Origin: a virus
Reading direction: 5' to 3' (one strand)
Length of the DNA: 28,030 bases
Virus record (IMG/VR): IMGVR_UViG_3300048582_000135
Coordinates: 1-28,030 of that record
In this document: one piece after another, positions 4,267-27,990 of the stretch
Position numbering within the stretch: position 1 is the stretch's first letter
Layout: the number at the start of each line of letters is the position of its first letter
Made by a program: the position numbers and the translations under genes
Notes under the pieces: model-generated
Told to the model about the DNA's origin: nothing
What the model saw: the letters and a program-made list of their open reading frames with translations, nothing else
Database searches by the model: none

Positions 4267-4268
4267 GG

Positions 4269-4358
4269 TCATACTCCAGTTATCCAACCAGCGAGCGCGC
4301 TGGCGATGATAAAAACGGTCAAGAAGGTTGCGCAGCGGGCTGCGTCCATCGCGGTCAC
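4269..4358 (-). CDS. Very small membrane peptide, 29 aa (GTG start)
   Basis: Frame GTG ACC GCG ATG... encoding MTAMDAARCATFLTVFIIAS then ALAGWITGV. A perfect GGAGGT lies six bases before the GTG, and the start overlaps the previous stop (GTGA). The stop lies two bases before the bet ATG. One hydrophobic segment (about residues 12-28) predicts a single-pass membrane peptide. It may also serve to couple translation into bet. Support is the strong ribosome site and the precise tiling between neighbours. Confidence 0.55.
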   Translation of the reverse strand: MTAMDAARCATFLTVFIIASALAGWITGV

Positions 4359-4480
4359 AGGCGCACCTCCAAGATCCACCAGCCGGAAACCCGGCCAAAA
4401 CTCGCAGCACACTCACGGCCGTCAGCGATGGCGCGGGCAATCACTGCCCCGGCATGCTTGTCCACATAGAACAGGCTCAC
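4355..4480 (-). CDS. Small unknown protein, 41 aa (GTG start)
   Basis: Frame opening at GTG 4480, which overlaps the upstream stop codon as GTGA. The product begins MSLFYVDKHAGAVIARAIAD and continues GRECAASFGRVSGWWILEVRL. The mix looks like a small folded domain rather than noise (hydrophobic core, WW pair, single Cys). It also overlaps the next small gene by GTGA, giving an uninterrupted chain from the 134-aa gene to bet. Family not recognised. Confidence 0.5.
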   Translation of the reverse strand: MSLFYVDKHAGAVIARAIADGRECAASFGRVSGWWILEVRL

Positions 4481-6347: not shown

Positions 6348-6371
6348 TCAATCAACACAGTCGAGGTGTGT

Positions 6372-10543: not shown

Positions 10544-10899
10544 TCTACGACATACAGCCAGTGCCAAAGCCGCGCATGACTCAGCGTGACAAGTGGGCGA
10601 AGCGCCCGGCAGTGCTCAGGTATCGGGCCTTCTGCGACCAAGTGCGCGCCCAGGGCGTCGAGCTGCCAGATGCGGGGGCGCACATCACGTTCATGCTGCC
10701 CATGCCGGGGTCATGGAGCCGCAAAAAGCGGCAGCTCATGCTGGGCGCGCCGCACAAACAGAAACCGGACGTGGACAACCTGGCCAAGGCGCTGCTCGAT
10801 GCGTGCCGCGACGAGGATCAGGGTGTCTGGGATCTGCGCACCACGAAACGCTGGGCGCACCTTGGCGGCATCGAAATCACCGTGGGAGAAGTGCAATGA
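10540..10899 (+). CDS. rusA: RusA-family Holliday junction resolvase
   Basis: ATG at 10540 (AGGAG seven bases upstream, ATGA overlap) gives 119 residues, the family size. Starts with IYDIQPVPKPRMTQRDKWAK. The catalytic region is KPDVDNLAKALLDACRDEDQ followed by G-V-W-D-L and K-R-W: D77 and D79 with K83, plus an acidic pair at D91/D93, correspond to RusA Asp70, Asp72, Lys76 and Asp91. It resolves four-way junctions arising from replication and Bet-mediated recombination before packaging. Confidence 0.92.
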   Translation: MIYDIQPVPKPRMTQRDKWAKRPAVLRYRAFCDQVRAQGVELPDAGAHITFMLPMPGSWSRKKRQLMLGAPHKQKPDVDNLAKALLDACRDEDQGVWDLRTTKRWAHLGGIEITVGEVQ

Positions 10900-11411
10900 C
10901 CGAGTACCTGACTGCAGCAGATGCCGAGGCGGCGCGCAAACCCACGAGTGACCTGGTGCTGGAGGCGATAAAAGACCTCACCTCGCATGAGCAGATAGCA
11001 ACCCGGGAGACAGTGCAGCACATCACCGGGGTCAAGCTGACGCTGGTAGACGACGCGCTCAAGACCCTCACAAACAAGCAGCTCATTGCCCGGGTTCAGC
11101 GGGGCGTCTATGTGCTGATCCACCAGCACCCGGAGGCGCGCATCGTTTCGATGACCCAACTTCCCGACGGCACGATCAAGCTGGACGTGGGCGACGACGT
11201 GTACACGCTCACCCCGCGAGAGGCCCGACTGGTTGCGACAGCCCTCGCCGGCATCCAGATGCAGGCAGCGGTCATCGAGTCCGGCCATCAGGCCGCGATA
11301 ACCAACGGTCTGCTGAGCGTGCGCATGCACCAGCTGGAGCGAGAGGTGCGCGAGGCGATGGCTGGGCGCAGGAAGGTACGGGCGGCGCGTAAAAAGGAAA
11401 CAGATTCCTAA
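10896..11411 (+). CDS. Winged-helix DNA-binding protein, 171 aa
   Basis: ATGA overlap with rusA; an in-frame extension back to 10593 would overlap rusA and is rejected. Residues ~20-75 form a winged helix: LVLEAIKDLTSHEQIATRET, VQHITGVKLTLVDDALKTLT, then LIARVQRGVYVLI as the wing. The middle has beta-rich IVSMTQLPDGTIKLDVGDDV, and the C-terminus is helical and very basic (AGRRKVRAARKK). It is the last gene of the rightward early operon, the position where lambda has its late regulator Q, so it is a candidate late activator. No homology to Q is visible. Confidence 0.65.
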   Translation: MTEYLTAADAEAARKPTSDLVLEAIKDLTSHEQIATRETVQHITGVKLTLVDDALKTLTNKQLIARVQRGVYVLIHQHPEARIVSMTQLPDGTIKLDVGDDVYTLTPREARLVATALAGIQMQAAVIESGHQAAITNGLLSVRMHQLEREVREAMAGRRKVRAARKKETDS

Positions 11412-13127: not shown

Positions 13128-13169
13128 TGCATCGGAGTGACGATAGTCGCTGTCGTCACCCCCATGCAG
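13128..13169. repeat. Long nested inverted repeat
   Basis: CTGCAT (13128-13133) pairs with ATGCAG (13164-13169), and inside it GTGACGA (13137-13143) pairs with TCGTCAC (13153-13159), separated by a symmetric 4-nt by 4-nt internal loop and capped by a 9-nt loop. All 13 pairs are Watson-Crick. There is no U-tract, so it is not an ordinary terminator. It lies ~75 nt before the next gene and could be an RNA element or a dimer-binding site. Downstream, TGTGTGG/CCACACA (13193-13199, 13221-13227) forms another inverted repeat. Confidence 0.45.
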
Positions 13170-13244
13170 AACATAGGATGCACAATCAAAAGTGTGTGGC
13201 CTGCTAAGCACGCAACGCACCCACACAGACCAGAGGATGCACGC

Positions 13245-13526
13245 ATGACCACCCCAGACTGGCTACGCCGGCTCATTGCCGAATCGGGCATGTCACAGCG
13301 CGAGGCTGCGCAGGCTATCGGTATCTCGCCGCGCATGATGCGCTACCACCTCGCGCCAGAGGGCACGTCGCAGCACAGGCCGGCGCCACCCGCCGTTGTG
13401 CTGGCCATCGAGTACCTGGCTTGGCGAGAGCGCACCTTTGAGAGCTGGTTTGCGTCCCAGCCCGTCGATCTGCCGATCAGCGCCCGTGCTGTGTGGGATG
13501 CGGCAAGGGAGTGGCCAAAACCATGA
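13245..13526 (+). CDS. XRE-like helix-turn-helix protein, 93 aa
   Basis: ATG at 13245 with AGAGG eight bases upstream; the longer in-frame start at 13137 lies inside the hairpin region and is rejected. Residues ~8-40 form the helix-turn-helix: RLIAESGMSQREAAQAIGIS then PRMMRYHL. The C-terminal half (VVLAIEYLAWRERTFESWFA) is a helical domain, perhaps for dimerisation. Located at the early/late boundary; a possible regulator of the adjacent structured region or of late units. ATGA overlap with the next gene. Confidence 0.7.
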   Translation: MTTPDWLRRLIAESGMSQREAAQAIGISPRMMRYHLAPEGTSQHRPAPPAVVLAIEYLAWRERTFESWFASQPVDLPISARAVWDAAREWPKP

Positions 13527-14276: not shown

Positions 14277-14310
14277 AAACCCCCTTTCCGCTACGGTTTG
14301 GGGGTTTTAT
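14277..14310 (+). terminator. Strong Rho-independent terminator
   Basis: AAACCCCC (14277-14284) pairs with GGGGGTTT (14300-14307) around a 15-nt loop that contains a further CCG/CGG pair (14288-14290, 14294-14296). The stem is followed by TTTTATTTT. It separates the early/middle genes from the late genes and lies 31 nt before the first copy of the 14-bp repeat. That argues that late transcription either restarts there or must antiterminate. Confidence 0.8.
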
Positions 14311-14340
14311 TTTGCCCGCCGATCACCGCCACACGCTGCG

Positions 14341-14354
14341 CCCCCTGTAGAGTT
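14341..14354 (+). promoter_or_regulatory. Late-unit repeat, copy 1 (CCCCCTGTAGAGTT)
   Basis: Exact 14-bp repeat, first of three. It sits between the terminator and the GIY-YIG/terminase/portal unit, 35 nt before the ATG. The leader that follows contains the inverted repeat TGCCGGC (14355-14361)/GCCGGCA (14384-14390), which reaches the start codon. No sigma70 -35 box is recognisable upstream. Interpreted as a phage-specific late control site; mechanism unknown. Confidence 0.6.
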
Positions 14355-14389
14355 TGCCGGCCCCAGGCCGCGCCGACACCATCGCCGGC

Positions 14390-14986
14390 ATGACTACCAA
14401 ACTCAAAGTAACGCCAAAATCAAAGCCAGCAGCAAAAAAAGCTGCGGGCGGGTCTGTGTCTGCGATTTACGCGCTGCATGATCCGTGTACCGGCGAAATA
14501 CGTTACATCGGCAAGGCCAACGATCCTGATGCAAGGCTGAAATCTCACATGCGTGACTCTCTAAGGCGGAACACTCCGGTCTACTGCTGGATCAAGAAGC
14601 TGCTGGATGCTCAATCTCGGCCGGTTATGCGCGTCATGGAGTGGACTAGCGACTGGCAGGAGGCGGAGAAACGCCTGATCGCCGAATACCGCATCGCCGG
14701 GGCGAGGCTTCTTAATCTTGCAGATGGCGGCAATGAGCCAGCATGCAGCCGGCATGTCAGGGCCAGTAATGGCGTAAAGGTTGCGCGCGGGCGCGACAAG
14801 GATGTGTGGGCGTTAACTCGTCGCATGGGAGAGCTGCTCAGATGGCTGCAAACCAACGGCAGAATTGAGAAGGCCGAGCAGATGATGATGACAATCAATC
14901 TGTTTGGCTTAATGTCCGCCACCGAAAAGAAGCGCATGGCGATAGCCTGCTCCGGAAGATTGGAGTCTATCAATGACAGCATCTAA
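14390..14986 (+). CDS. GIY-YIG nuclease-domain protein, 198 aa
   Basis: ATG at 14390 (a TTG at 14354 in the same frame would start inside the repeat and is rejected). After a basic N-terminus, residues ~24-100 form a GIY-YIG domain: SAIYALHDPCTGEIRYIGKA, then DPDARLKSHMRDS, EWTSDWQEAEKRLIAEYRIA and RLLNLADGGNEP. The AIY/YIG pair, the Arg in ARLKSH, a downstream Glu and the final Asn fit the catalytic layout. The C-terminal half has a basic region (SNGVKVARGRDK) and helices. First gene of the late unit, overlapping terS by 14 nt. It may be a homing-type nuclease or a nuclease that assists packaging. Confidence 0.85.
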   Translation: MTTKLKVTPKSKPAAKKAAGGSVSAIYALHDPCTGEIRYIGKANDPDARLKSHMRDSLRRNTPVYCWIKKLLDAQSRPVMRVMEWTSDWQEAEKRLIAEYRIAGARLLNLADGGNEPACSRHVRASNGVKVARGRDKDVWALTRRMGELLRWLQTNGRIEKAEQMMMTINLFGLMSATEKKRMAIACSGRLESINDSI

Positions 14987-15530
14987 GCCAAGCAAAGCCG
15001 CCCCAGCTCTTCCAGCCAAGAAGAAAGCCGCAAAGGCCGCGACTGCGCAAAAGCCACTACGCCCATCTGCAAAACTGGACAAGCTGGGTATCGAATGGGT
15101 TTGTGAGCGCATTGCTTGCGCAGAAAGCATGACAAGCATTGCCGGATCGGCTGGCGTTTCATTTGGCACTCTGTCCGCATGGCTTGAGCTTGTTCCTGAG
15201 CGTTCCGCGCGCGCACGCGAAGCGCGCCGCTCAGTCGCTCGGTTTTGGGACGAGAAGGCCGAGATTGAAATTGCGTCCGCAGGTGATCCGTTCGAACTGT
15301 CGAAGGCCAAGGAAATGGCCAGCCATTACCGCTGGCGCGCATCAAAGATCGCCCCAAAAGATTACGGCGACAAGCTGGCCGTCGGCGGCGCTGACGACCT
15401 GCCACCGATTGAAATGGCCAAGAAGCTGACCGATGCCGAGCGCGCCGTGCGACTTTCGCGCCTGCTCAACGACAGCCCAGAGGTCATGGCCGCACTGGTC
15501 GGCGCACTGAAGGGCGGCAAGAAGGCATGA
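14973..15530 (+). CDS. terS: Terminase small subunit
   Basis: 185 residues. A Lys/Ala-rich N-terminus (PAKKKAAKAATAQKPLRPSA) is followed by a helix-turn-helix CAESMTSIAGSAGVSFGTLS-AWL, the DNA-recognition part of small terminases. Then come ARFWDEKAEIEIASAGDPFE and AKEMASHYRWRASKIAPKDY-GDK, a segment common to this family, and a C-terminal helix likely to touch the large subunit. The ATGA overlap with terL confirms the pairing. It recognises the packaging site; a pac sequence often lies in or near this gene but none was identified. Confidence 0.85.
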   Translation: MTASKPSKAAPALPAKKKAAKAATAQKPLRPSAKLDKLGIEWVCERIACAESMTSIAGSAGVSFGTLSAWLELVPERSARAREARRSVARFWDEKAEIEIASAGDPFELSKAKEMASHYRWRASKIAPKDYGDKLAVGGADDLPPIEMAKKLTDAERAVRLSRLLNDSPEVMAALVGALKGGKKA

Positions 15531-17074
15531 GTGCTGCGCAGCGGATAACGACCGGCGACATGCTGGCGCTTATTGCGCAGCTCGACCCTGAGACAAAGGC
15601 CGAACTCGACAAGATCGTGATGGCTGGTGATGCGCCGCTATGGGTGGCGCAGGACGGCCCCCAGCTGGCCGCCTATATGTCGCCAGCCGACATAATCTTT
15701 TACGGCGGCGCTGCAGGAGGCGGAAAGACCGACCTGCTGCTGGGCCTGGCGCTCACGTCACAGGATCACTCGATCATCTTCCGGCGCGAGGCTGTCCAGC
15801 TGATCGGCATCGAAGAGCGCATGTCCACCATTCTCGGCACGCGCAAGGGCTATAACTCGCAAACTGGCGTCTGGCGCCTGCCCGGTGATCGCGTCATGGA
15901 GCTGGGCAGCGTCAAGGAGCCGGACGACTGGATGAAGTATCAAGGTCGAGCGCATGACGCAAAGCTGTTCGACGAGATTTGCCACTTCACTGAAGCCCAG
16001 TTCCGCACCCTGATCGGCTGGCTGCGCACCGACAAGCCCGAGATCCGGCAGCGCGTGGTGTGCGCAGGCAACCCGCCGACCACCGCAGAAGGCGAGTGGG
16101 TCAAGCGGTACTGGGCGCCCTGGCTCGACCCGCAGCACCCGAACCCGGCCAAGCCCGGCGAGCTGCGCTGGTATGTGACCAGCGAAAAGGGCGAGGATCA
16201 GGAGGTTCCTGGGCCGGAGCCAGTGATGGTTGGCGATGACATGATGCTGCCAAAGAGCCGCACATTCATCCCGTCGAGCGTGGACGACAACCTTTTCCTG
16301 CTGTCCACCGGCTACAAGGCCACACTTCAGTCACTGCCAGAGCCGCTGCGCAGTCAGATGCTGCGCGGCGACTTCAACGCTGGCGTAGCAGATCCAGCCT
16401 GGCAGGTCATCCCGACCGAGTGGGTCAAGGCTGCACAGGCTCGATGGAAGGAGCGCGAGGCAAAAGGCCCGATGACCGCGCTCGGCTTCGACCCTGCGCG
16501 TGGCGGCATCGACAAGTCATCCGTGGCGCGCCGGCATGGCCAGTGGTTCGACCAGATCATCACAGTCCCTGGCATCGCAACCAAGGATGGCCCGTCAGCA
16601 GCCGGCTTTGTCGTCCCATTGGTGCGCGACGGCGCCTGCATTTGCGTGGACAGCATCGGCATAGGCTCCAGTGCTCTGGATTTCATCACAGGGCTGAATC
16701 TGAACGTATTTGCCGTCAATGGCAGCGCCGCAACCGGCCAGGTCACGAAGGCCGGCAATCTGCGCTACCGCAACCTGCGTGCAGAAATGTACTGGAAGCT
16801 GCGCGAAGCACTTGATCCAACCTCGCCAGACCCGATTGCGCTGCCGCCAGACTCCGAACTGCTCGGCGACCTCACCGCCGTCAGATACAAGGTGGTCATG
16901 CTCGGCAAGGTGGTGGCGATCCAGATGCACGACAAGGACGAAATCAGGAAGCTGCTAGGCCGCAGCCCAGACAAGGGCGACTCTGTTGCCATGACGTTTG
17001 TGACCGGAATACCAGCATCCAACTCCACCCGCAGCGAATACAGCGAAGCACCGCCGCCCGACTGGCGCACATGA
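15527..17074 (+). CDS. terL: Terminase large subunit (ATPase plus nuclease)
   Basis: 515 residues. ATPase: Walker A GGAAGGGKT (60-68), Walker B KLFDE with D149 and E150, coupling motif VVCAGNPP (178-184). RNase H-like nuclease: ALGFDPARGG (D322), ICVDSIGIGSSALDF (D375) and a late KGDSVAMTF Asp close to the C-terminus. The motor pumps DNA through the portal and cuts the concatemer. The adaptor segment FYGGAAGGGKTDLLLGLALT matches Terminase_6-type proteins. Start by ATGA overlap with terS. Confidence 0.95.
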   Translation: MSAAQRITTGDMLALIAQLDPETKAELDKIVMAGDAPLWVAQDGPQLAAYMSPADIIFYGGAAGGGKTDLLLGLALTSQDHSIIFRREAVQLIGIEERMSTILGTRKGYNSQTGVWRLPGDRVMELGSVKEPDDWMKYQGRAHDAKLFDEICHFTEAQFRTLIGWLRTDKPEIRQRVVCAGNPPTTAEGEWVKRYWAPWLDPQHPNPAKPGELRWYVTSEKGEDQEVPGPEPVMVGDDMMLPKSRTFIPSSVDDNLFLLSTGYKATLQSLPEPLRSQMLRGDFNAGVADPAWQVIPTEWVKAAQARWKEREAKGPMTALGFDPARGGIDKSSVARRHGQWFDQIITVPGIATKDGPSAAGFVVPLVRDGACICVDSIGIGSSALDFITGLNLNVFAVNGSAATGQVTKAGNLRYRNLRAEMYWKLREALDPTSPDPIALPPDSELLGDLTAVRYKVVMLGKVVAIQMHDKDEIRKLLGRSPDKGDSVAMTFVTGIPASNSTRSEYSEAPPPDWRT

Positions 17075-17085
17075 GGACATAGACG

Positions 17086-19341
17086 ATGGACGCCACAGCA
17101 ATCAAGCAGCACACGGCACAGGGCGACGATCTGGCGCTTTCGCTGGAGGAATACGCCGAGTACATGGAGGAAATCGAAGAGCAGCCAACCTGGCGCGCCA
17201 CGGCCGACAAGGAAATGGACTATGCCGATGGCAACCAGCTCGCCAGTGATCTGCTGGCCCGGCAGCAGGCGCTCGGCATCCCGCCTGCAGTCGAGGATCT
17301 GATTGGGCCGGCGCTGCTGTCGATTCAGGGCTACGAGGCGACCATCCGCACCGACTGGCGCGTGACCCCGGACGGCGAGACTGGCGGTCAGGACGTGGCC
17401 GATGCGCTCAACTACAAGCTGAATCAGGCTGAGCGGCACTCCAAGGCCGACCGCGCATGCAGCGAGGCCTTCCGCCCGCAGATCGCCATCGGCCTGGGCT
17501 GGGTAGAGGTCAAGCGCGAGTCTGACCCGTTCAAGTACCCGTACCGCTGCACGCATGTTCACAGGTCGGAGATTCACTGGGACTACGCCTCGACCGAGCC
17601 AGACCTGAGTGATGCGCGCTACCTGCGCCGCCAGCGGTGGCTGACACCTCGCCGAATCGCGCTGGTTTTCCCGCAGCACAAGGATCTGATCATGTCCATC
17701 GACCGGCACGGCCCGAGTTGGTGGGCTGAGCAGGCTATCGAGACAGTGGACGGCGGATCATCGACCGGACTGCGCAACGCTTGGGCCGAGGCGCGCAGCA
17801 ACACCATTCAGGAGGATCGCTGGTACAACCCGACCAGCAAGACGGTCTGCCTGGCCGAGGTCTGGTATCGCCGCTGGGTGGACGTGGCGCTGATAAAGAG
17901 TCCCGACGGCCGGATTGTCGAGTACGACGAGAGCAACCTTGCGCACAACGTCGCGGTAGCGAGCGGCACCGTCGAGTATTCGCGTGCCGTGGTGTGCCGA
18001 GTGCGCCGCAGCTACTGGCTCGGCCCACACCTTTTGCACGATGGAAAGACCCCGTACAGCCACAACCACTTCCCCTATGTCCCGTTCTGGGGCTTCCGCG
18101 AGGACTCGACCGGCCGCCCCTATGGCTATGTCAGAGGCATGATCTACCCGCAGGACAGCCTCAACTCAGGCATCAGCAAGCTGCGCTGGGGCATGGCAGT
18201 GGCCCGCACCGAGCGCACCAAGGGCGCCGTCGCCATGACTGACGCCCAGTTCCGGCAGACCGTGGGCCGAGTGGACGCTGACATTGTGCTCGATCCAACA
18301 GCAATGGCTCAGCCAGGCGCCCGATTTGAGGTCAAGCGTGACTTCCAGCTCAACGCCCAGCACTTCCAGATGATTCAGGACAACCGCTCAGCCATCGAAC
18401 GAGTGAGCGCTGTCACCAACGGCTTCATGGGCAAGCAGGGCACCGCGACCAGCGGATTGCAGGAGCAGACGCAGGTAGAGCAGAGCAATCAGAGCCTGGC
18501 CCGGGTCATGGACAACTTTCGTGCCGCCCGCTCGATGGTCGGCGAGCTGCTGCTGTCGATGATCGTCGATGACCTGGGCGACAAGCCGCACACCATCCTG
18601 ATCGAGGGCGATGCCGTGCGCGAGGATCGCATGGTCGTCATCAACAAGCCGGAGGTGGATCAGACCGGCTACAGCTACCTGAGCAACGATCTGCAGCGCA
18701 CCCGGCTCAAAGTGGCGCTGGAGGACGTACCGAGCACCGCCAGCTATCGCGGCCAGCAGCTCAATGCCATGTCGGAGGCGGTCAAGTCGCTGCCTGCGCA
18801 GTATCAGGCTGCAATGCTCCCGTTCATGGTCAGCCTCATGGATGTGCCGTTCAAAAAGGATGTGGTCGAGGCCATCCGTGCAGCAGCAGAGCAAGGCTCA
18901 CCCGAGGAAATCGAGAAGCGCATCAAGCAAGAGGTCGAGCAGGCGCTCAAGCTGTCCGGCCTGGAGGTCAAGGAGCGCGAGATTGCCATCAAGGAGAGCA
19001 AGGCCAAGAGCGAAATCAGCGAAATCAATGCGCGAGCAGTGCAGATCGGCGTTCAGGCGGCCTACTCGGCCATGCAGGGCGGCGCTCAGGTCGCAGCAAT
19101 GCCGCAAATCGCACCGATTGCCGACGCAATCATGCAGGGCGCCGGCTACCAGCTGCCCAATCCGGCCGGCGTAGATCCGAATTTCCCGCAGCCGCAAGGC
19201 CTCATGCCGCCGCAAGGCATGCCGCCAGTCCAGCAGAACACCAGCCCGGCGTTCCCGCCCGTTCCGCAGCAGGGCGGCTCGCCAATGGCCGGCATCGAGA
19301 CACCAGCAACGGATGACAACCTGCAAGGAGTCGCGCAATGA
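17086..19341 (+). CDS. Portal protein, P22 type
   Basis: 751 residues, close to P22 gp1 (725). The N-terminal region has DLALSLEEYAEYMEEIEEQP and the acidic/Trp segment around QPTWRATADKEMDYADGNQL. The core has GLGWVEVKRESDPFKYPYRC, RSEIHWDYASTEPDLSDARY, FWGFREDSTGRPYGYVRGMI and SGLQEQTQVEQSNQSLARVM. A charged helical barrel (EEIEKRIKQEVEQALKLSGL) and a Pro/Gln/Gly-rich C-terminal tail follow. It forms the dodecameric vertex ring to which terminase docks. GAGGA lies eight bases before ATG. Short-tailed (podovirus-like) morphology is suggested by this family but not proven. Confidence 0.9.
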   Translation: MDATAIKQHTAQGDDLALSLEEYAEYMEEIEEQPTWRATADKEMDYADGNQLASDLLARQQALGIPPAVEDLIGPALLSIQGYEATIRTDWRVTPDGETGGQDVADALNYKLNQAERHSKADRACSEAFRPQIAIGLGWVEVKRESDPFKYPYRCTHVHRSEIHWDYASTEPDLSDARYLRRQRWLTPRRIALVFPQHKDLIMSIDRHGPSWWAEQAIETVDGGSSTGLRNAWAEARSNTIQEDRWYNPTSKTVCLAEVWYRRWVDVALIKSPDGRIVEYDESNLAHNVAVASGTVEYSRAVVCRVRRSYWLGPHLLHDGKTPYSHNHFPYVPFWGFREDSTGRPYGYVRGMIYPQDSLNSGISKLRWGMAVARTERTKGAVAMTDAQFRQTVGRVDADIVLDPTAMAQPGARFEVKRDFQLNAQHFQMIQDNRSAIERVSAVTNGFMGKQGTATSGLQEQTQVEQSNQSLARVMDNFRAARSMVGELLLSMIVDDLGDKPHTILIEGDAVREDRMVVINKPEVDQTGYSYLSNDLQRTRLKVALEDVPSTASYRGQQLNAMSEAVKSLPAQYQAAMLPFMVSLMDVPFKKDVVEAIRAAAEQGSPEEIEKRIKQEVEQALKLSGLEVKEREIAIKESKAKSEISEINARAVQIGVQAAYSAMQGGAQVAAMPQIAPIADAIMQGAGYQLPNPAGVDPNFPQPQGLMPPQGMPPVQQNTSPAFPPVPQQGGSPMAGIETPATDDNLQGVAQ

Positions 19342-19577
19342 GGGTGCTGATCGCAATCGACCAGCTGTTCAACACCGTATTTGCAGGCTGGCCCGACGAA
19401 ACACTGTCGGCCCGGGCGTACCGGATGAACCTGAAGGATCGAGTGAAGCTGCGCTGGGTGGTCGCAATGATCGTCATCGACGGCCTGTTTTTCTGGGATC
19501 AGCAGCATTGCAAGGAGTCATACCACAGTGAGCGACTGCGCCGGCAGCTGCCGCCCGAGTACCGCGACCCCCTGTAG
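19338..19577 (+). CDS. Small unknown protein following the portal, 79 aa
   Basis: ATGA overlap with the portal gene. MRVLIAIDQLFNTVFAGWPD then ETLSARAYRM, RWVVAMIVIDGLFFWDQQHC and ESYHSERLRRQLPPEYR. This compact pattern (IDQ-FN...GWPDETLSARAYR...IDGLFFWD..HC..SY..E..R.QLP) recurs as a small protein in many phage structural clusters. Its function is not known. The stop codon TAG lies inside the second copy of the 14-bp late repeat, so the gene end and the control site share DNA. Confidence 0.75.
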   Translation: MRVLIAIDQLFNTVFAGWPDETLSARAYRMNLKDRVKLRWVVAMIVIDGLFFWDQQHCKESYHSERLRRQLPPEYRDPL

Positions 19578-19581
19578 AGTT
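19568..19581 (+). promoter_or_regulatory. Late-unit repeat, copy 2 (CCCCCTGTAGAGTT)
   Basis: Exact copy; together with flanks GACCCCCTGTAGAGTTCG (19566-19583) it is identical to copy 3 over 18 bp. It overlaps the stop codon of the preceding gene and lies 59 nt before the next ATG. It is followed directly by the GC-rich inverted repeat CGCGC-CCCG-GCGCG. Same interpretation as copy 1. Confidence 0.6.
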
Positions 19582-19640
19582 CGCGCCCCGGCGCGCCCGG
19601 CCCGAAACTCCGGCCATCCACCGCACAAACAGAGACTGCC

Positions 19641-20825
19641 ATGCAGAGCACGCGCACAGACGACTGGTCAAAGGGAGCGAATAACGTGTCCCGGCCTGAT
19701 CGCCTGCCCGCAAACTTCGTGCGGCAGCTGGTTAATCTCGATCCATCCCCGGGCGGCCGGCTGCAGATGCGCGCCCAGTTCAGCCAGGTCGCGCCTGCAG
19801 CAGACATGCGCCTGGCTGTAGGTGCGACTGGCAAGGTCGTCTATGTGGACGGCGGCACTGTCGGCTGCTACCTGCTCGCAACCGACGCGACACAGCAGAT
19901 AGGCAGCATTGCCGCGACCGGCCCGATTGCCGGCGTCGAGCACAACGGTCAGGTCTACATATCCACCCAGACAGACAGCATTCGCGTCGATGGCGAGACA
20001 GTGAAGGCCTGGGCCATCCATGCGCCTCAGTTCTCCGTCGAGGTTATCGCCGGGTCGCTGCCGGCCGGCATCTACAAGTTCGCAGTCACCGCCACAGGTG
20101 ACGACGGCGAAGAGTCTGGCGCCGATCCGCTGATTGTCCGGCTCGACGGTACGCAGGCCGTGCGCCTCACCTCAACCGATGCCCGGCCGCTGCGCACCTA
20201 CGCCACCGTCAATGACGGCGCCACCCTGTTCAGCCAGGGGCCGCTGATCGGCGGCTCGATGGCGATCACCTTGGTCGATGACTCGCGTGAGCGCCTGACA
20301 ACCTCCGGGCTGGTCGGCATGCCGCACTGCTCGATGATGGTCAGTTACCGCTCGATCATCGTCGGCGTCAGTGGCGACTACCTCGTATTCAGCGTGCCAA
20401 TGCTTCCGCATTTGATGGATTCAGTGGCCGGATTCGTGCGCTACGCGAAAAGTCCGGCGCTAATCGCGGCCACCGATGGCGGAATTTATGTGGTGGCGGA
20501 TGACAAGACCTACTTCGTCACCGATCTGGACAGCGACAAGCCATCCAGCCGGATGGTGCTCGACCTGGGCGCCACCAGCGGCACAGCAGTCACGCTGCCG
20601 GATGGTCGCGCTGCATGGTTCACCCGCTACGGGCAAGCCATCGGCGACCAAGCCGGCAACATCACACTGCCAAACCGCGACACCTACGCACCAGACCTCG
20701 CCGCAAACGGGGCGTCCGGCCTGCTGGAGCACAACGGCTGCTCGATGGTCGTCACCACAATGCGCGGCCCGGCCTCGCCCAACAATATCGCAACCGGCGA
20801 TTTTGCCGACTTGGAGACAGAATGA
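19641..20825 (+). CDS. Probable tail/stabilisation protein, 394 aa
   Basis: First gene after repeat copy 2. It starts MQSTRTDDWSKGANNVSRPD, then RLPANFVRQLVNLDPSPGGR and LQMRAQFSQV. A W..G.NN...LP..FVR..VN.DP..GG.L..R opening is common in phage head-tail or tail-hub proteins. The rest is beta-rich with repeated strand-turn segments (e.g. IAATDGGIYVVADDKTYFVT), consistent with a propeller-like fold. By position it may close the portal, as P22 gp10 does, but I see no decisive signature. Ribosome site is weak. Confidence 0.55.
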   Translation: MQSTRTDDWSKGANNVSRPDRLPANFVRQLVNLDPSPGGRLQMRAQFSQVAPAADMRLAVGATGKVVYVDGGTVGCYLLATDATQQIGSIAATGPIAGVEHNGQVYISTQTDSIRVDGETVKAWAIHAPQFSVEVIAGSLPAGIYKFAVTATGDDGEESGADPLIVRLDGTQAVRLTSTDARPLRTYATVNDGATLFSQGPLIGGSMAITLVDDSRERLTTSGLVGMPHCSMMVSYRSIIVGVSGDYLVFSVPMLPHLMDSVAGFVRYAKSPALIAATDGGIYVVADDKTYFVTDLDSDKPSSRMVLDLGATSGTAVTLPDGRAAWFTRYGQAIGDQAGNITLPNRDTYAPDLAANGASGLLEHNGCSMVVTTMRGPASPNNIATGDFADLETE

Positions 20826-21346
20826 ACGAGAACATCGACGGCCTGAAGATCCTCGGATTCAGGCATGAGCTGGAAATCATCGAGATAGCCACCGGGCGCG
20901 TGGTGGAGCGGGAAGTCAAACTCAACCGCATCCCCCAGGCCGGCATCGACTTCCTGATTCAGGCGCCATTCGGCGACGTGCCGCCCGTTGCGACGTGGTA
21001 TTGCGCGCTGTTCCGCAACAACGTGCTGCCTGACGCCAACACCTCGGCCGCCGACCTGCCCAGCGTGCTCGGTGAATTCGTGGATTACAGCGAGGCAACC
21101 CGGCCGCTGTTCGTGCGTGCATACAACAGCGCAGGGCTGATGGACAACGCAGCCAGCAAGGCCATCTTCACGCCGACCGCCGACCGAAGCATCTACGGCT
21201 CCGTGATTGTGTCCAACCCGGTCAAGGGATCGAACACCGGCCTTGTGCTGTCTGCCGTGCGGTTCTCGACCGTGAAGCAAGTGTCTGCCGGGCTGGAGGC
21301 GAAACTCGTCTGCGGCCTCACCTACATCCCAACCAACGTAATTTAA
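20822..21346 (+). CDS. Unknown virion-associated protein, 174 aa
   Basis: ATGA overlap with the previous gene. MNENIDGLKILGFRHELEII, then REVKLNRIPQAGIDFLIQAP, TWYCALFRNNVLPDANTSAA and a C-terminus VCGLTYIPTNVI. A mainly beta protein with phage-structural character (small, no catalytic motif). Pairs with the following beta-rich gene as a likely adaptor or decoration protein. Function inferred from the neighbourhood only. Confidence 0.55.
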   Translation: MNENIDGLKILGFRHELEIIEIATGRVVEREVKLNRIPQAGIDFLIQAPFGDVPPVATWYCALFRNNVLPDANTSAADLPSVLGEFVDYSEATRPLFVRAYNSAGLMDNAASKAIFTPTADRSIYGSVIVSNPVKGSNTGLVLSAVRFSTVKQVSAGLEAKLVCGLTYIPTNVI

Positions 21347-21355
21347 GGGGGTCAC

Positions 21356-21799
21356 ATGACCGTAAAACTCAGCACCGGCTTCCGTGTCGGTCAAGCAATC
21401 ACCTCGTCCATGAAAGTGCTGCTCGATGGCGGCCTTGTCAGGATTTACTCGGGCACTGTGCCGGAAACCGCCGATGCTGCCCTCGGCGGCGCCACCCTGC
21501 TCTGCGAAATCAGCGACGGCGGCACTGGCGATCCGCTGAACTGGGAAGCGACCGCGCCGGGCGGAGTGCTGTCCAAGGCCGTGTCCGAAAACTGGACTGG
21601 CAACAACGTGCTCGGCGGCACCCCAACCTTCTTCCGCTATGTGAAGGTTGCCGACACTGGCGATGCCAGCACCACAGCCGTGCGCATACAGGGCACTGCA
21701 GGCGCGCTCGGCAGTGATATGTACATCAGCACCCTGCCACTGGTACTTGCTGCTCCGCAGTCGTTCTCGCTGTTCCAGCTCGCCATCCCTGAGCAATAA
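21356..21799 (+). CDS. Unknown virion-associated beta-rich protein, 147 aa
   Basis: ATG with AAGGGGG about five bases upstream. MTVKLSTGFRVGQAITSSMK, then VLLDGGLVRIYSGTVPETAD and ALGGATLLCEISDGG, ending SLFQLAIPEQ. Rich in Gly/Thr/Ala with alternating strands, suggesting a jelly-roll-like fold. It shares character with the gene before it. Probable tail or decoration component; exact role unknown. Confidence 0.55.
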   Translation: MTVKLSTGFRVGQAITSSMKVLLDGGLVRIYSGTVPETADAALGGATLLCEISDGGTGDPLNWEATAPGGVLSKAVSENWTGNNVLGGTPTFFRYVKVADTGDASTTAVRIQGTAGALGSDMYISTLPLVLAAPQSFSLFQLAIPEQ

Positions 21800-21802
21800 G
21801 TC

Positions 21803-23656
21803 ATGGCCAACCGCATAGGCAAGCTGCCTAAGCTGGTCTATGTGCCGGCCGTGGCACCCATTGCAGCGAGAGCTGCCTACTGCGTCAATGTGACGACATA
21901 CCTGCCGTATGCCGAGGCTCCAAGAAAAGCCGACAAGATACTGACCGAGGACGACCCAGAGCTGTCGTGGGTGGACTACGCAGATGACCCTTCGGAGGCA
22001 TACATACGGTACACATACGGCTACTACCCGTATGCGCCTGCAACGATCACCAACAGGATCTGTTACCCGGCAATAACAGGCCGTTCCGGCTCACCGTCGC
22101 GCATCGACGTGCTCGACAGCTTCAGCTGGGACGCTGGCGCGAGGTCTATCGCGCCGATTCCTGAATCCGGATACTTCAGGGCAGAGCTGCCGTTCTCGCC
22201 AATTGGCACGCAGTTCGGGTTCAGCTACCGGGGCTTTGCCAGCTCCGGGCTGCCAGAAATGACGCACAGCCTTGTAGCGAGGCGGGCCTTTTACACCATC
22301 GTCGAGAGCGGTGTCGTTGTTCATGGCCCTGCTGCGCTGCCGGCTTCTGCCCAGGTTGAGTTGCGCCGCACATCTGGAGTGGTGTCGTATCGCATCAACG
22401 GAACCGAAGTCTACGAGTCAGGCACGCTATCGTCCGGCGAAACCTACGGCGCCGCCTTGCTGTACTCGACGGGCGACTTTGCTGACTCACCAGAGATAGG
22501 CGAGGTCGAGGTTCCGATTGCGTTTGCTGCCGAGTTTCCCGGGCTGGTCGCAGCCATCAGTGACGTGGCCGACTACAGCGCCGCGCTGCTTGAGGCGCCG
22601 ACGCTGCTTGTCATCGCAGTGCTGGACGCAGTTGAGGGCGACATGCAGTTCTCCGGCGTGCTCCCGGCCATGCGTGCCGGCATCAGCTCGACCGGCAGCG
22701 CCGCCTGGGTGAATGAATCGCTTCCAGCTCTGTCGCTCAGGGCCAGCCTTGGTGTGATTGAAGAGATACCCAGCCACTTCATTGCGGCACTGCCGCCGCC
22801 GATCTTCTCCGCCTCGCTGCACACTGGCGCAGAGCTGTCGCTATCCATCAGCCTGCGGCCTGCGTTTGTTGCATCCGACGACCCCAGCTATTCGTTCGTT
22901 GATTCTGAACTGTCGATGACCAGGCTGATAAGGGCGCTGGAGCCATACCTGCCAGCCGACGAGATTGATGGCAGCGAGGGAATCGTTGCGCGTGACGTGC
23001 ACACCCTTGAATCAGCCATGCTGCTGGTCGGTCTTGACTCGCTTGAGGTCGGCGGCACAGCCAGCATCACTATCATCCTTGAGCTGGCCGGGATGGATTC
23101 GCTCAGCCTGAGCGATGAAATGACGCTTGGCTCCATCGTTGAAATGCTGGCCATCGAGCAGGTTTCGATAATGAGCCACGCAGGTGCGGCCCGGCAGCAG
23201 GCGCTGCAGTATTCCGTCAACTACCTGACCGGCGCCCTGACAACCTATCAGGACTTCGATTTCACCGGCTTCACTCACCACGAAGGCGCAGCATTCGCAT
23301 GGCGCGCAGACGGCCTGTACCGCCTCGGCACTGAAGGCGAAGAGACAATGCGCCTGCTGGCCGACTTCGGCGCGACCGATTACGGCGAGGCGAAGATCAA
23401 GCACGCAGTCACCGGCTTCGTCGGGGTGCGCGCAGACGGCCAGTGCTACCTGCGCATCGCTGCAGATGACGGCATCGAGCGGGTCTACAGCCTGGCCGGC
23501 ACCGGCAACCAGCGGCGGGCCAGGCTCGCCAAGGGTGTCGAGAGCAGATTCTGGAACGTGAGGCTTGAGCTGGAAGATGCCTCGTTCGCAACGATAGATA
23601 ACATCGAGCTGGAAGTCGGTGTGGCCCAGCGCCGCAGCGCCAGCAGGAGATTCTGA
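21803..23656 (+). CDS. Large virion/tail protein with lectin-like middle domain, 617 aa
   Basis: 617 residues starting MANRIGKLPKLVYVPAVAPI. Residues ~110-235 look like a concanavalin-type sandwich: SFSWDAGARSIAPI, FGFSYRGFASSG, FYTIVESGVVVHG, VVSYRINGTEVYESGTLSSG. The central part (about 240-470) is hydrophobic and Ser/Leu-rich with repeated short ELSL/DSLSL-like segments. The C-terminal ~140 residues (DFDFTGFTHHEGAAFAWRAD, GLYRLGTEGEE, VYSLAGTGNQRRARLAKGVE) resemble the end of tail-tip proteins of other phages. Likely contacts the cell surface or forms the tail end. Weak ribosome site three bases after the previous stop. Confidence 0.6.
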   Translation: MANRIGKLPKLVYVPAVAPIAARAAYCVNVTTYLPYAEAPRKADKILTEDDPELSWVDYADDPSEAYIRYTYGYYPYAPATITNRICYPAITGRSGSPSRIDVLDSFSWDAGARSIAPIPESGYFRAELPFSPIGTQFGFSYRGFASSGLPEMTHSLVARRAFYTIVESGVVVHGPAALPASAQVELRRTSGVVSYRINGTEVYESGTLSSGETYGAALLYSTGDFADSPEIGEVEVPIAFAAEFPGLVAAISDVADYSAALLEAPTLLVIAVLDAVEGDMQFSGVLPAMRAGISSTGSAAWVNESLPALSLRASLGVIEEIPSHFIAALPPPIFSASLHTGAELSLSISLRPAFVASDDPSYSFVDSELSMTRLIRALEPYLPADEIDGSEGIVARDVHTLESAMLLVGLDSLEVGGTASITIILELAGMDSLSLSDEMTLGSIVEMLAIEQVSIMSHAGAARQQALQYSVNYLTGALTTYQDFDFTGFTHHEGAAFAWRADGLYRLGTEGEETMRLLADFGATDYGEAKIKHAVTGFVGVRADGQCYLRIAADDGIERVYSLAGTGNQRRARLAKGVESRFWNVRLELEDASFATIDNIELEVGVAQRRSASRRF

Positions 23657-23657
23657 T

Positions 23658-24593
23658 ATGCCGGGCACCATCGACGACAACATTGACAAGCTGTTCGACT
23701 TTGCCGACGCAGCGGCCAAGGACGCCAAGGAGCTGGCCAACAGGATCAGCACTTTCATTCCGAACATCGAGAAGGGCGACCTGAACTACATCGACAAAGT
23801 GCCGGACATGGCCAAGCCGCTGGCGCTGGGTGACATTCTGCAGTCGGACAACAGCAGCGAAACGCTGGAGTTCATCAATGCCGAGACAGAGGCACTGATC
23901 GACAAGTATTTCCCCGAGATAAACGGCTGCCTGCGCTACACGCCGGAGCAGTGGCTGTGCGGGATCATCACCGGACAGGAGCCGTTCGGGCTGAGCAAGG
24001 AGGTTTTCGAGGCCGTCTGGCACGAGAGCCGCGACCGCGAGTACCGCGCACGCAACAGTGCGGTTGAGCAGATCCGCTCGGAGTTCTCGCAGCGCGGATT
24101 CAGGACGCCTCCGGGCGCCATGATAAAGGCCGTTATGCTGGCGGAAGAGCGCGCATCCGATGCAATCGGCGAGGTGAATCGTGCGCAGACCGTGCGCAAC
24201 GCCGAGATAAAGCTCGACCTGCTGAAGTTCGCAGAAGAGCAGGCCATCCGGCTGAAGCTCGGCATCTTCCAGGCGATCAGCACCTATTACCGGGTTCTGA
24301 TGGATCTGCCGAACAAGGACGTGGAGGCCAGTCGCATGAAGGTCGCCGCCTACGCATCGTTCAATGAGTCAATGTCCAGCTACTACCGAGTCCAGCTTGG
24401 TTTTGAAGAGCTGCGCCTGAATGCCGCGAAGCTGCGCATGGACGGCAAGCTGGACGAGTCGCGTATCAGGGTGGCATCGCTCGACGGCTCGCGTAACGCA
24501 GCCCTTGGTCAAGCCACTCGCGCATTCGCAGACGTTGCCGCCCAGGCCGCAGGCTCTGCAGGAACGATCAACGCGAACATCGTCACCGGATAA
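23658..24593 (+). CDS. Helical virion protein, 311 aa
   Basis: ATG at 23658, AGGAG eight bases upstream; the earlier in-frame start at 23619 would overlap the previous gene. 311 residues, mostly helical: MPGTIDDNIDKLFDFADAAA at the start and a long coiled region in the second half (EVNRAQTVRNAEIKLDLLKF, AEEQAIRLKLGIFQAISTYY, ELRLNAAKLRMDGKLDESRI). Its tail is Ala/Gly-rich (DVAAQAAGSAGTINANIVTG). A W-H-E-S-R-D-R-E segment sits in the middle. It could be an ejected internal or tail-shaft protein; this is inference. Family not recognised with confidence. Confidence 0.6.
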   Translation: MPGTIDDNIDKLFDFADAAAKDAKELANRISTFIPNIEKGDLNYIDKVPDMAKPLALGDILQSDNSSETLEFINAETEALIDKYFPEINGCLRYTPEQWLCGIITGQEPFGLSKEVFEAVWHESRDREYRARNSAVEQIRSEFSQRGFRTPPGAMIKAVMLAEERASDAIGEVNRAQTVRNAEIKLDLLKFAEEQAIRLKLGIFQAISTYYRVLMDLPNKDVEASRMKVAAYASFNESMSSYYRVQLGFEELRLNAAKLRMDGKLDESRIRVASLDGSRNAALGQATRAFADVAAQAAGSAGTINANIVTG

Positions 24594-24608
24594 TCTGGAG
24601 AGCAACCA

Positions 24609-25646
24609 ATGCCACTGCCAGCGGGATCATTCGCCTACAGCGTGCGGCACACCGTCTGGGTGCCATCCTACGTCGATACAAAAAAGGTTTATCTGGACGT
24701 GCTGGGCTTGGCACGCGAGTGCCCGCCGCAGATTAACCCTGAATTTGTGCTCGGGTTTACAACGGATCACGCCTATCTGTGGTTCGGCAGCGACACGAAG
24801 CTGTGGCGCTGGAATCTTGATACTGATGAGGTCACAGAGCATTCAGCTACGCTGGGCACGGTAATCGTGCCTTCGACCGAGGTTGCGTATAAGTTCTTCG
24901 ACGCACCGAGAGACAGACTGCTTACATCTGCAGGCCTAGTTGACCTGAACACCCTGAGCGTGTCGGCGGCCGCAATCAATCGCGTCCAGTATCTGCGCGA
25001 TGTTTCATGGTCGCGTGACGGCTCTAAGTTCTACGCCGTTTACAGTTCGTCGCCGTTCATGCGCGAGTACGACACAGAGACATGGGTTTCGGTAGACAAT
25101 CCGAGAGGATTTACGGCAGATACCACCAGGATCGTTTTTTCGCCTAGCGGCGACATGGTTACTATTTCTGGCGGCATTAACTATTACTGGATAACAACTT
25201 ATTCGTACCCCGACTGGGTTGGCCTGCATTACGTCAACCATTTTTTTGGAGAGTATTACGCCGCCGAGTATTCGCCAGACGGGCAGTTACTCGCCATGTG
25301 GTATCCAGAGGGCAGCTCAGATCAGCGAGCTGGCGGTGATCCTGCGCGTGACGCCTTCCGCCTTTACTCGCTCCCCGGCCTGTCATTGCTACCGAGGCTT
25401 CCGCTTGACCCTGGATACAGCTATTGGGGCCGGTTCACTGGAAATGACAACGAGGTTGCCTTTGAGGGAAACGCTTACGAGGCAGACGGGCTTTCAGGCC
25501 AGGATACGCGCATGTTCGACGTGGATACTGGCGTGATGACGAGATCCATAATCGGGCGCATCACAAGCCTTGTAAGATCGCCGCCGCCGCCAGTCGAGGT
25601 CTATCAGTTCTGGACTTCCCGCACCAAGTCTTTCGAGGTGATCTGA
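24609..25646 (+). CDS. WD40-like beta-propeller protein, 345 aa
   Basis: ATG with GGAGAG six bases upstream. At least four blade-like repeats are visible: AYLWFGSDTKLWRWNLDTDE; VSWSRDGSKFYAVYSSSPFM then REYDTETW; IVFSPSGDMVTISGGINYYW; AEYSPDGQLLAMWYPEGSS. A fifth, GRFTGNDNEVAFEGNAYEAD, is followed by DTRMFDVDTG. S-x-D/S-G turns followed by hydrophobic strands and a W/Y-D-T closing strand are WD40/TolB-like. Propellers can bind proteins or sugars, so a receptor-contact role is plausible. The gene is visibly less GC-rich than upstream virion genes. Confidence 0.65.
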   Translation: MPLPAGSFAYSVRHTVWVPSYVDTKKVYLDVLGLARECPPQINPEFVLGFTTDHAYLWFGSDTKLWRWNLDTDEVTEHSATLGTVIVPSTEVAYKFFDAPRDRLLTSAGLVDLNTLSVSAAAINRVQYLRDVSWSRDGSKFYAVYSSSPFMREYDTETWVSVDNPRGFTADTTRIVFSPSGDMVTISGGINYYWITTYSYPDWVGLHYVNHFFGEYYAAEYSPDGQLLAMWYPEGSSDQRAGGDPARDAFRLYSLPGLSLLPRLPLDPGYSYWGRFTGNDNEVAFEGNAYEADGLSGQDTRMFDVDTGVMTRSIIGRITSLVRSPPPPVEVYQFWTSRTKSFEVI

Positions 25647-25726
25647 TGACGATTATCGCCACCGATTACAGTGGCGTGGCGCCGAGATTCTGGACAAACC
25701 GCATCCGCACGCAGGAAGCCTCCTGA
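25646..25726 (+). CDS. Very short coupled ORF, 26 aa
   Basis: ATG overlaps the propeller gene stop (TGATG) and its own TGA overlaps the next ATG (TGATG), giving MTIIATDYSGVAPRFWTNRI then RTQEAS. It fills the only space between the two large genes exactly. Either a real tiny protein or a translational bridge, or the remnant of a longer gene disrupted by cassette exchange. No domain recognisable. Confidence 0.45.
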   Translation: MTIIATDYSGVAPRFWTNRIRTQEAS

Positions 25727-27900
25727 TGGCGATGATCTTTCGCCCGACAAGCGCTGCCGCTGTGCGAACAAGGGTGTTTGCTGGGCGGCTGGCTGCAAGG
25801 ATTCGCCGCCTGAAATCGGGGGTGGCGCATGCAGTGCATGGCATCTTTCTGCTGCGGGCTGTGAAGAGAGGCGGTAACGAGATTGTTACCGTCATTGAAA
25901 CCCCCACATTCGTGTGCTCGGCGACAGGAGTTGCTCGATTCCTTGGTGTGCCATCCAACCGAAATGTATTGGTGACGTTCGACGCTTACCGGGTAACGGA
26001 CTTGGGCGCCCTTTTGTCAGGCGAGCAGAAACTAAACGATGGTGGCGCGCTGATGCCGGCCGGCTCTGTTGACATGACCCGCTCGTCGATGCCGAACGGA
26101 ACGCGAATGCAGGTCGGCGAGCTGCCCCCTTGGAGCGCCGGGCGACCCCACGACCTCACCCCTGATGTTGGGATGCAGTCTTTCAGTCGCGGGTCTATGG
26201 TTGCGTGCGTGCCATTGCCGTTGTCCGGGCATTGGTCAAACCATGTGTACTCCATGCTCGTTTTCCGGTGTACGCCGCAAATGCCGCTCGTTGCCGCGCA
26301 GAAAGATGACCCGAACTTTGTCATCCCCGAAGGGTGGCACGCCGGAACGCCGACGGGGACTGACGAGCCTGCCACCACCCTGTCCAAGCTGACCGCGATA
26401 GAGTTCAGCCAGGCCGCGATAGGTATCTTCGCGCCGGTAAAGATAGGCGCAGGTTCAGCTATAGGTGTGGCAGAGTGGGTGGAGCCAGACGGCAGCGCAA
26501 TAGGCGGCGTCTGTTCTCTTGCCGTCTTAGATCCTTCATACGTCGGAGAAGCGCCGTCTACTGGAATTAAATCGGAGCAGATAAAGTATTTCGGCTACAG
26601 CGTTACGCTCGATACGAGCGACCCAGATGCCGTAGCGGTCGGTGCTGTTCCGTGGAGCACCACGCTGACGATTGGCGATATAGCCGGCGAGCCAACCAGC
26701 ATCCCAGCATACGCATCTGGGTACGACCCCACGTTCACCTACTACGGTAACGGGTATTCCTCCAGCCCGCGCCCTGCCTTCCCGATAGAGTATTCCGCCG
26801 CCCCATACCTTGTGACCAGCGGCGCGCTCGCTGATCTTCAAATCAGTGATAACGGACTGCTCGGGCTGCCGCGCTCCGTATTCCCTGACGCAGCAGCGAC
26901 CGCGACGGGCATTGTGCGAATTAAGGTGCCGACTGCTGGAGGGCCGGTGACGCTCCCCGGAAGCAAGGCGGGGGATGGGCTTGGCGCGCCGGCTGTGTGG
27001 ACTACGCTATCTACAGTGGAGTTCACATACAACCGTGTTTTGACCGTGCTGGTTCGCGCCGGGGCAGAAGGCGTGAGCGGTCAGGTGCTGTATGAGTACC
27101 ATCAAGACCTATACAACCACCACGACGACCTGTTTGAAAAGATATGGGTGCCGTACAACGCCGTTTACGACGCAGAGGGCAGCCAGTCCCTTGTGAGCGC
27201 GCGAATAACGCGGCGGTGGGAGATAGACCCGCCGAGGCATGTGTTCGATAACCCCGCCCTCCCGTTGCTGCCTACCACCAAGTCTGCTATCAGGCCCACC
27301 CGCTACTTCCAAAATGCCAACGAGGTAGACTTTGTTTTAGTGCGCGACAACGGCGCAATTGTTAGCCTGAGCTTCGGCGCATACATGCCGTGGGTGTTTA
27401 ACAGCCGAAGGTACACTTCAACCGACCCGGATGACTCTGGGCGGCTAGAGCATATAGCTGTCGGCGATCAGTTCTGGAACCGGCCGGCCTCAAAAAGGTC
27501 TGAACCTTTTTGTCAGTACAGCGACGGCACAATCGCTGTGCTACTGACGCCAAAGGCTGATTTTATGGCAACGCTGCGCCGTATATACATCGGAATCGTC
27601 GATGTTGCGTCCAGTACGCTGATACAAATTGGGCCGCAGCTGGCGCTTCTCAATTCAGATAACTGCCCTATCATCGCGCTGTCATGCCACGAGCGCGCAG
27701 TAGAAAACGTGGGCGCCCCTGGCATTGCCGCTCACGGAAAGCTGCTGCTGTCAGTTAATAGTGGGGGCGGGCTGTTTTGTATATCGGATATTGAAACCCT
27801 AGCGTGGCTTGACGACGGGGCTTTTTGGGATGTTGAGCATTACATTGGAAACCCACTCGCCCCCGCCGACATAGGCGAGAAAATGAAGCTGGACTGGTGA
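25726..27900 (+). CDS. Large unknown virion protein, 724 aa
   Basis: 724 residues. Unusual basic N-terminus (MAMIFRPTSAAAVRTRVFAG, RLAARIRRLKSG) followed by a mainly beta protein with many Gly/Pro/Asp turns. Examples: YYGNGYSSSPRPAFPIEYSA; VLYEYHQDLYNHHDDLFEKI; VDFVLVRDNGAIVSLSFGAY; GKLLLSVNSGGGLFCISDIE. The C-terminal strands look propeller-like, as in the gene two upstream. It ends at the third late repeat. Size, beta content and position suggest a tail spike or receptor-binding component. Codon use includes many AT-ending codons, unlike the terminase/portal block. Confidence 0.55.
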   Translation: MAMIFRPTSAAAVRTRVFAGRLAARIRRLKSGVAHAVHGIFLLRAVKRGGNEIVTVIETPTFVCSATGVARFLGVPSNRNVLVTFDAYRVTDLGALLSGEQKLNDGGALMPAGSVDMTRSSMPNGTRMQVGELPPWSAGRPHDLTPDVGMQSFSRGSMVACVPLPLSGHWSNHVYSMLVFRCTPQMPLVAAQKDDPNFVIPEGWHAGTPTGTDEPATTLSKLTAIEFSQAAIGIFAPVKIGAGSAIGVAEWVEPDGSAIGGVCSLAVLDPSYVGEAPSTGIKSEQIKYFGYSVTLDTSDPDAVAVGAVPWSTTLTIGDIAGEPTSIPAYASGYDPTFTYYGNGYSSSPRPAFPIEYSAAPYLVTSGALADLQISDNGLLGLPRSVFPDAAATATGIVRIKVPTAGGPVTLPGSKAGDGLGAPAVWTTLSTVEFTYNRVLTVLVRAGAEGVSGQVLYEYHQDLYNHHDDLFEKIWVPYNAVYDAEGSQSLVSARITRRWEIDPPRHVFDNPALPLLPTTKSAIRPTRYFQNANEVDFVLVRDNGAIVSLSFGAYMPWVFNSRRYTSTDPDDSGRLEHIAVGDQFWNRPASKRSEPFCQYSDGTIAVLLTPKADFMATLRRIYIGIVDVASSTLIQIGPQLALLNSDNCPIIALSCHERAVENVGAPGIAAHGKLLLSVNSGGGLFCISDIETLAWLDDGAFWDVEHYIGNPLAPADIGEKMKLDW

Positions 27901-27926
27901 GCGGAGCGTCAATCAGTCCGACCTGA

Positions 27927-27940
27927 CCCCCTGTAGAGTT
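27927..27940 (+). promoter_or_regulatory. Late-unit repeat, copy 3 (CCCCCTGTAGAGTT)
   Basis: Third exact copy, 26 nt after the stop of the 724-aa gene and 56 nt before the next ATG. It shares 18 bp (27925-27942) with copy 2. Being ahead of a new gene after a 96-nt gap, it marks the start of a third late unit. Confidence 0.6.
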
Positions 27941-27953
27941 CGACCAGCGCAAA

Positions 27954-27990
27954 GCCCCGCAACACCATAAGCCCCACAAACAAGCGGGGC
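27954..27990 (+). repeat. Leader inverted repeat before the last gene
   Basis: GCCCCGC (27954-27960) and GCGGGGC (27984-27990) can pair across a 23-nt loop. The right arm contains the GGGG that would serve as ribosome site for the ATG at 27997, so the fold could hide it. A second GCCCC at 27971-27975 offers an alternative partner. Confidence 0.4.

Follow-up and report, generated by a model that had tools for sequence, protein, structure and literature searches.

The window analysed here, an entire virus record of 28,030 bp that is itself a phage fragment, carries a temperate phage early region, with a RecE-like exonuclease and a single-strand annealing protein encoded on the minus strand (1862–4440) and a Rha/KilAC anti-repressor on the plus strand (6366–7064). 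A 14-mer, CCCCCTGTAGAGTT, occurs at the starts of three late gene blocks, with exact matches at 14341–14354, 19568–19581 and 27927–27940, all on the plus strand. The features discussed below are as follows.

10896–11411, plus strand: candidate late regulator, winged-helix protein of 171 amino acids, PHROG_8117 (no assigned function)
14341–14356, plus strand: copy 1 upstream box, about −48 to −33; exact match, ahead of the GIY-YIG, TerS, TerL and portal genes
14354–14359, plus strand: copy 1 −35-like hexamer, TTGCCG (from the sequence; register from aligned copies)
14377–14382, plus strand: copy 1 −10-like hexamer, CACCAT, with the A and T of xAnnnT present (aligned copies)
14390–14392, plus strand: ATG coinciding with the predicted +1, the mRNA being predicted to be leaderless (start-position survey)
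14390–14986, plus strand: GIY-YIG endonuclease-like gene, first of the unit after copy 1
14973–15530, plus strand: terminase small subunit, Sf6-like
15527–17074, plus strand: terminase large subunit
17086–19341, plus strand: portal, P22-like
19568–19583, plus strand: copy 2 upstream box, ahead of the head closure Hc3 gene (19641–20825)
19604–19609, plus strand: copy 2 −10-like hexamer, GAAACT (aligned copies)
27927–27942, plus strand: copy 3 upstream box, after the ORF at 25726–27900
27940–27945, plus strand: copy 3 −35-like hexamer, TCGACC (from the sequence)
27963–27968, plus strand: copy 3 −10-like hexamer, CACCAT (aligned copies)

An initial annotation had described three exact plus-strand copies and no others, and this held when both strands of the window were scanned with up to three mismatches. 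Its judgement that such a triple is unlikely by chance was also sustained: CCCCCTGTAGAGTT is the sole 14-mer with at least three occurrences in the window, and our own rough arithmetic puts the chance at <1e-3. As it had further reported, the copies lie 35–59 nt before an ATG (35, 59 and 57 nt for copies 1, 2 and 3; ATGs at 14390, 19641 and 27998), copy 2 contains a stop codon (the TAG of the ORF at 19338–19577) and copies 2 and 3 have 18 bp in common, GACCCCCTGTAGAGTTCG. The strong terminator that it placed before copy 1 stood in part, as a terminator-like hairpin visible by eye at about 14277–14312, but a simple terminator scan, in which loops were restricted to 3–8 nt, did not list it.

Copy 2 is followed by head closure and other virion genes. 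The GIY-YIG endonuclease-like gene (14390–14986) lies after promoter copy 1 and before the small terminase gene; its first codons (ATGACTACCAAACTCAAAGTAAC) are a near match to the start of the gene that follows the equivalent element in L080, an arrangement that looks like insertion behind a terminase-like N-terminal tail.

Conservation of the element among related phages

Phages 8P, USP_18 and F116 and dozens of uncultivated phages each carry 2–7 copies of (A/G)CCCCCTGTAGGGTTCG; almost all of these lie on the late-coding strand, at unit starts that correspond by synteny. In 8P, whose portal gene has 75% DNA identity to that of the window, CCCCTGTAGGGCT has five copies, all on the plus strand and either intergenic or over the preceding stop codon; they precede the terminase, the gene that follows the portal, a csrA-like gene, a structural gene and the holin. 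The copies of F116, which vary slightly, are at 22729 (just past the winged-helix gene and before the small terminase), 28682 (after p41), 45732 and 59203 (before the holin). The motif search in relatives that the initial annotation had proposed thus found the copies recurring at late-unit starts: in the annotated genomes of 8P, USP_18 and F116, 14/14 either fall in gaps before late genes or overlap nothing but the stop codon of the gene before.

Orientation was strongly biased. Among 80 portal relatives, CCCTGTAG had 85 occurrences on the late strand against 10 on the opposite one, and in 17 records, most of them picked because their partial loci carried a copy, CCCTGTAGRG occurred 2–7 times per record with 68/68 copies on a single strand per record. 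The exact 14-mer also matched 63 IMG/VR records, once each; these single matches are probably mostly due to chance. A CsrA-like gene lies inside the late region of 8P, F116 and Bcep22-like phages and, in 8P, this gene (9910) is directly 3′ of one element copy (9838). We found no earlier description of the element in the open literature searched (the F116 and Bcep22 genome papers lie outside it), and a literature search by sequence gave nothing related among the matches listed.

A second box at fixed spacing and predicted transcription starts

Aligning 101 copies on the core revealed conservation at positions −3 to 13 and then at positions 34–39, where the pattern xAnnnT forms a −10-like box about 22 nt downstream of the 14-mer. 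Because the alignment was seeded on the core, conservation within the core is partly by construction; that of the −10 box is not. In a non-redundant set of 76 copies (<70% identity downstream), the A and T of xAnnnT were in register in 57 (75%), while other registers averaged 1.9%, and 14 more of the 76 had the pattern with one extra base of spacing. It was present at all three window copies (CACCAT, GAAACT and CACCAT). The T and G at positions 11 and 13 agree with the beginning of a −35 hexamer placed 17 bp ahead of the −10. Taking the T of xAnnnT as −7 places the core at about −48 to −33, with the 14-mer itself at about −48 to −35, and the predicted +1 about 7 nt past the −10-like box, at position 46–47.

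The −10 box is without the usual first T, and a scan for the sigma70 consensus at the copies found no consensus promoter. The initial annotation had seen no sigma70 promoter match, which was right for the 14-mer and for the consensus scan, the −35 being poor, but which missed the xAnnnT −10; it was also right in seeing no sigma54 match, as the pattern GG-N10-GC was not found among the aligned copies.

The ATG positions and tRNA 5′ ends were not among the data defining the element. The first ATG of a long ORF fell at positions 46–48 in 23/103 copies, mainly those ahead of the small terminase but also window copy 1, and at positions 55–64 in 0/103, with the remaining copies having ordinary leaders. 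This distribution is as expected, because transcription starting at position 46–47 predicts either a leaderless message or room for a ribosome-binding site. The terminase mRNA is thus predicted to be leaderless, with the terminase start codon at the predicted +1. In eight relatives (L095:5384-5505, L097, L098, L101, L106, L133, L141 and L088), the winged-helix gene has an element within or next to its 3′ end, and the 5′ end of a tRNA-Met predicted with ARAGORN falls at position 45–47 of that element, which is its predicted +1, so the role of the element does not appear to be purely translational.

The palindrome in the box is weak and shows no covariation between its arms, which gives no support to a dimer site; a perfect dyad, CCCT-GT-AGGG, was rejected on the same lack of covariation (GAG in the window, CCG in the L134–L140 group). 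A CsrA site was likewise rejected, the GGA loop being absent by eye. Near the small terminase start of L073, L078, L095 and L092 are inverted repeats of changing sequence (GCCGGGAacacTCCCGGC, GCGCGcggaacactcGCGCGC), which flank the −10 and adjoin the leaderless ATG; these are possibly an operator, or a hairpin blocking translation of read-through RNA.

A winged-helix gene and a sister lineage with a different element

Only one conserved gene preceding the late units looks like a regulator (10896–11411). Its protein matched the PHROG_8117 profile with an E value of 7e-41, and 34/34 aligned members of the family matched that profile too. An AlphaFold2 model of the window protein (mean pLDDT 92) combines a winged helix with a small beta part and a long C-terminal helix. 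In this predicted structure, the first domain resembles DtxR/IdeR-type DNA-binding domains (rmsd about 1.5–2 over about 60 residues); Foldseek matches were weak (best E 5.8e-3), and a PDB sequence search gave no significant match. The window protein had no Pfam Mor match, and Mor was absent from the 25 of 31 families listed for the 34 aligned members. Some database entries label PHROG_8117 members as hypothetical or as putative AbiEi antitoxin, with a best E value among members of 1.3e-4 for Pfam AbiEi_4; we rejected that identity for the window protein, which scored 13.2 bits, well under the cut-off of 25.

The winged-helix gene was present in 12/12 whole motif-bearing genomes and in 0/4 whole genomes of a sister lineage lacking the motif; it is 8P_038 in 8P and F116p37 in F116. 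Among all ORFs of 8P or G001 this pattern was unique to it; starting from the ORFs of G007, one large virion-region ORF showed the same pattern. A separate set of prophages from named bacterial genomes, fetched by the protein alone and not used for the motif, gave 44 core matches on the strand of the gene versus 8 on the opposite strand, and the −10 was in register at 25/44 of the former versus 0/8 of the latter. In some records with divergent winged-helix proteins, element matches were weak or absent.

Residue 54, within the predicted recognition helix (residues 48–60), is Arg in nearly all members. The window protein has Ala54, and all its copies have GAG in place of GGG; L083 has Lys at this position and GAG, while L093, L100, L105, L108 and L212 have Asn and AAGG, and the divergent L091 is also without Arg54. 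The link between residue 54 and the box bases fits a change of specificity, but with few independent cases it is just suggestive, because Acinetobacter prophages with Arg54 mix GGG and AAGG. We consider the winged-helix protein likely to be the specific regulator of the element. The short HTH protein at 13137–13526, marginally similar to Xre and to sigma region 4, was rejected as the regulator, having no relatives in the motif-bearing genomes searched.

The sister lineage (L069–L077), near by portal, has neither the winged-helix gene nor the motif, and the gene is absent from its four whole records (G017–G020). Because the portal tree nests this lineage among motif-bearing phages, in a clade with strong support (100/99), its condition looks like replacement within the group. 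It repeats an unrelated element, AGTCACATAGCGTC, in up to seven copies on one strand and at comparable sites, usually with TTG some 16–20 nt upstream (TTGC...AGTCACATAGCGTC), an arrangement that is late-promoter-like. The swapped genomes (4/4) also share a short protein that has no Pfam match and is absent from 12 motif-bearing genomes, making it a candidate alternative regulator of the swapped lineage; it is encoded at L228:15003-15206, and a relative ends at L069:5176.

A proposed late-gene switch and its parallels

The repetition, orientation and synteny of the element, its −10 at fixed spacing, the start-site coincidences, and its co-occurrence and replacement with a gene are there to be read in the genomes, and on such sequence evidence the element is very probably a family of phage late promoters. 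More specifically, we propose, at a probability of roughly 0.75, that the 14-mer is the upstream box of these promoters, read by the PHROG_8117 protein, which would activate all late units. The box, (A/G)CCCCCTGTAGGGT, would lie at about −49 to −36 and adjoin a poor −35 hexamer (TnG...), followed by a spacer of 17 (sometimes 18) bp, the −10-like xAnnnT and, about 7 nt beyond it, the transcription start. The −10 would be recognised by host RNA polymerase carrying its main sigma factor, for which the poor −35 would be unusable; the PHROG_8117 protein, made from the region preceding the late genes, would bind the box beside the −35 and recruit polymerase, so that the terminase/portal, head, tail and lysis units are all switched on together. 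Binding of protein to box, activation and the choice of sigma factor are the parts of this scheme that we infer. Of the roles suggested in the initial annotation, those of late promoter and late activator site are the ones favoured by the relatives, the fixed-spacing −10, the ATG and tRNA starts and the winged-helix co-occurrence.

Activation is preferred to repression because the core promoter is poor and the box adjoins the −35. An unlikely alternative keeps the late promoter but has the winged-helix protein repress it from an operator overlapping the −35, with another factor or derepression turning it on. The DNA data are symmetric in this respect, a box overlapping the −35 is a site of repressor action too, and relatives of the winged-helix fold include repressors; however, with such poor core hexamers (no sigma70 consensus at the copies) an unaided promoter would be weak, and a box adjoining the −35 resembles activator-dependent promoters. 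Somewhat less likely again, the core may serve as the −35 for a sigma factor, either phage-encoded or alternative, and the winged-helix protein may do something else or be a sigma-like specificity factor. The core is indeed the most conserved part, the −10 departs from TATAAT and the HTH protein at 13137–13526 shows marginal similarity to sigma region 4; but that protein has no relatives in the motif-bearing genomes searched, none of the ORFs scanned reached a curated cut-off for a sigma factor, and the −10 retains the A and T that are the most critical bases for sigma70.

Action in RNA or on elongating polymerase, as a pause site or as the antitermination loading site that had initially been suggested, would suit the single orientation at unit starts and the terminator-like hairpin before one window copy, but is very improbable because the fixed-spacing −10, leaderless ATGs and tRNA 5′ ends place the core upstream of +1; the potential CCC-TGTA-GGG hairpin is, moreover, broken in the window (GAG), and there was no Rfam match. 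A recombination boundary, also suggested initially, or a chance repeat would account for copies at module edges but can practically be dismissed, because a spaced second box is kept across dozens of genomes with strict strand bias.

The activation scheme offers, as box plus candidate protein, a late-gene switch that can be tested in temperate phages including F116, 8P, USP_18 and prophages of Pseudomonas, Acinetobacter, Variovorax, Zoogloea, Psychrobacter and others. In the literature searched, late control in this large group appears not to have been described. The scheme also proposes a function for the conserved hypothetical family PHROG_8117. With slightly better than even confidence, we extend it to a late-activator family defining an exchangeable regulon module, in which protein and boxes give way together to a different pair of regulator and element in sister phages, terminase mRNA starts at its AUG and the tRNA at its 5′ end. 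This would be a natural case of a dispersed promoter set exchanged along with its regulator, a long-standing question in regulon evolution.

The late promoters of phage Mu, activated by protein C, are several and dispersed, with non-consensus −10 and −35 elements and an activator site that adjoins or overlaps the −35 (PMC4461284). The element described here resembles the Mu C way of working in having several copies in one orientation, each before a late unit, with a −10 at fixed spacing and a poor −35. It differs from Mu in its DNA motif, in a winged-helix/long-helix candidate without a Mor/C Pfam match and in belonging to a P22-like portal phage group. In P2 and P4, a phage activator (Ogr or delta) likewise switches on several late operons, but Ogr, a zinc-binding protein, has sites around −55, and no Ogr-type zinc-binding match was found here. 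The Q proteins of lambda and P22 (gp23) act by antitermination from one late promoter, and control the late genes in phages whose virion genes are P22-like; here, by contrast, the promoter-like elements are several and the ORFs scanned include no Q-like gene. The SAS of cluster K mycobacteriophages are short conserved repeats before genes, in one orientation and adjoining the start codons of protein genes. The present element shares with them a short conserved sequence repeated before genes in a single orientation but, unlike SAS, its copies also precede a tRNA and have a −10 box at fixed spacing.
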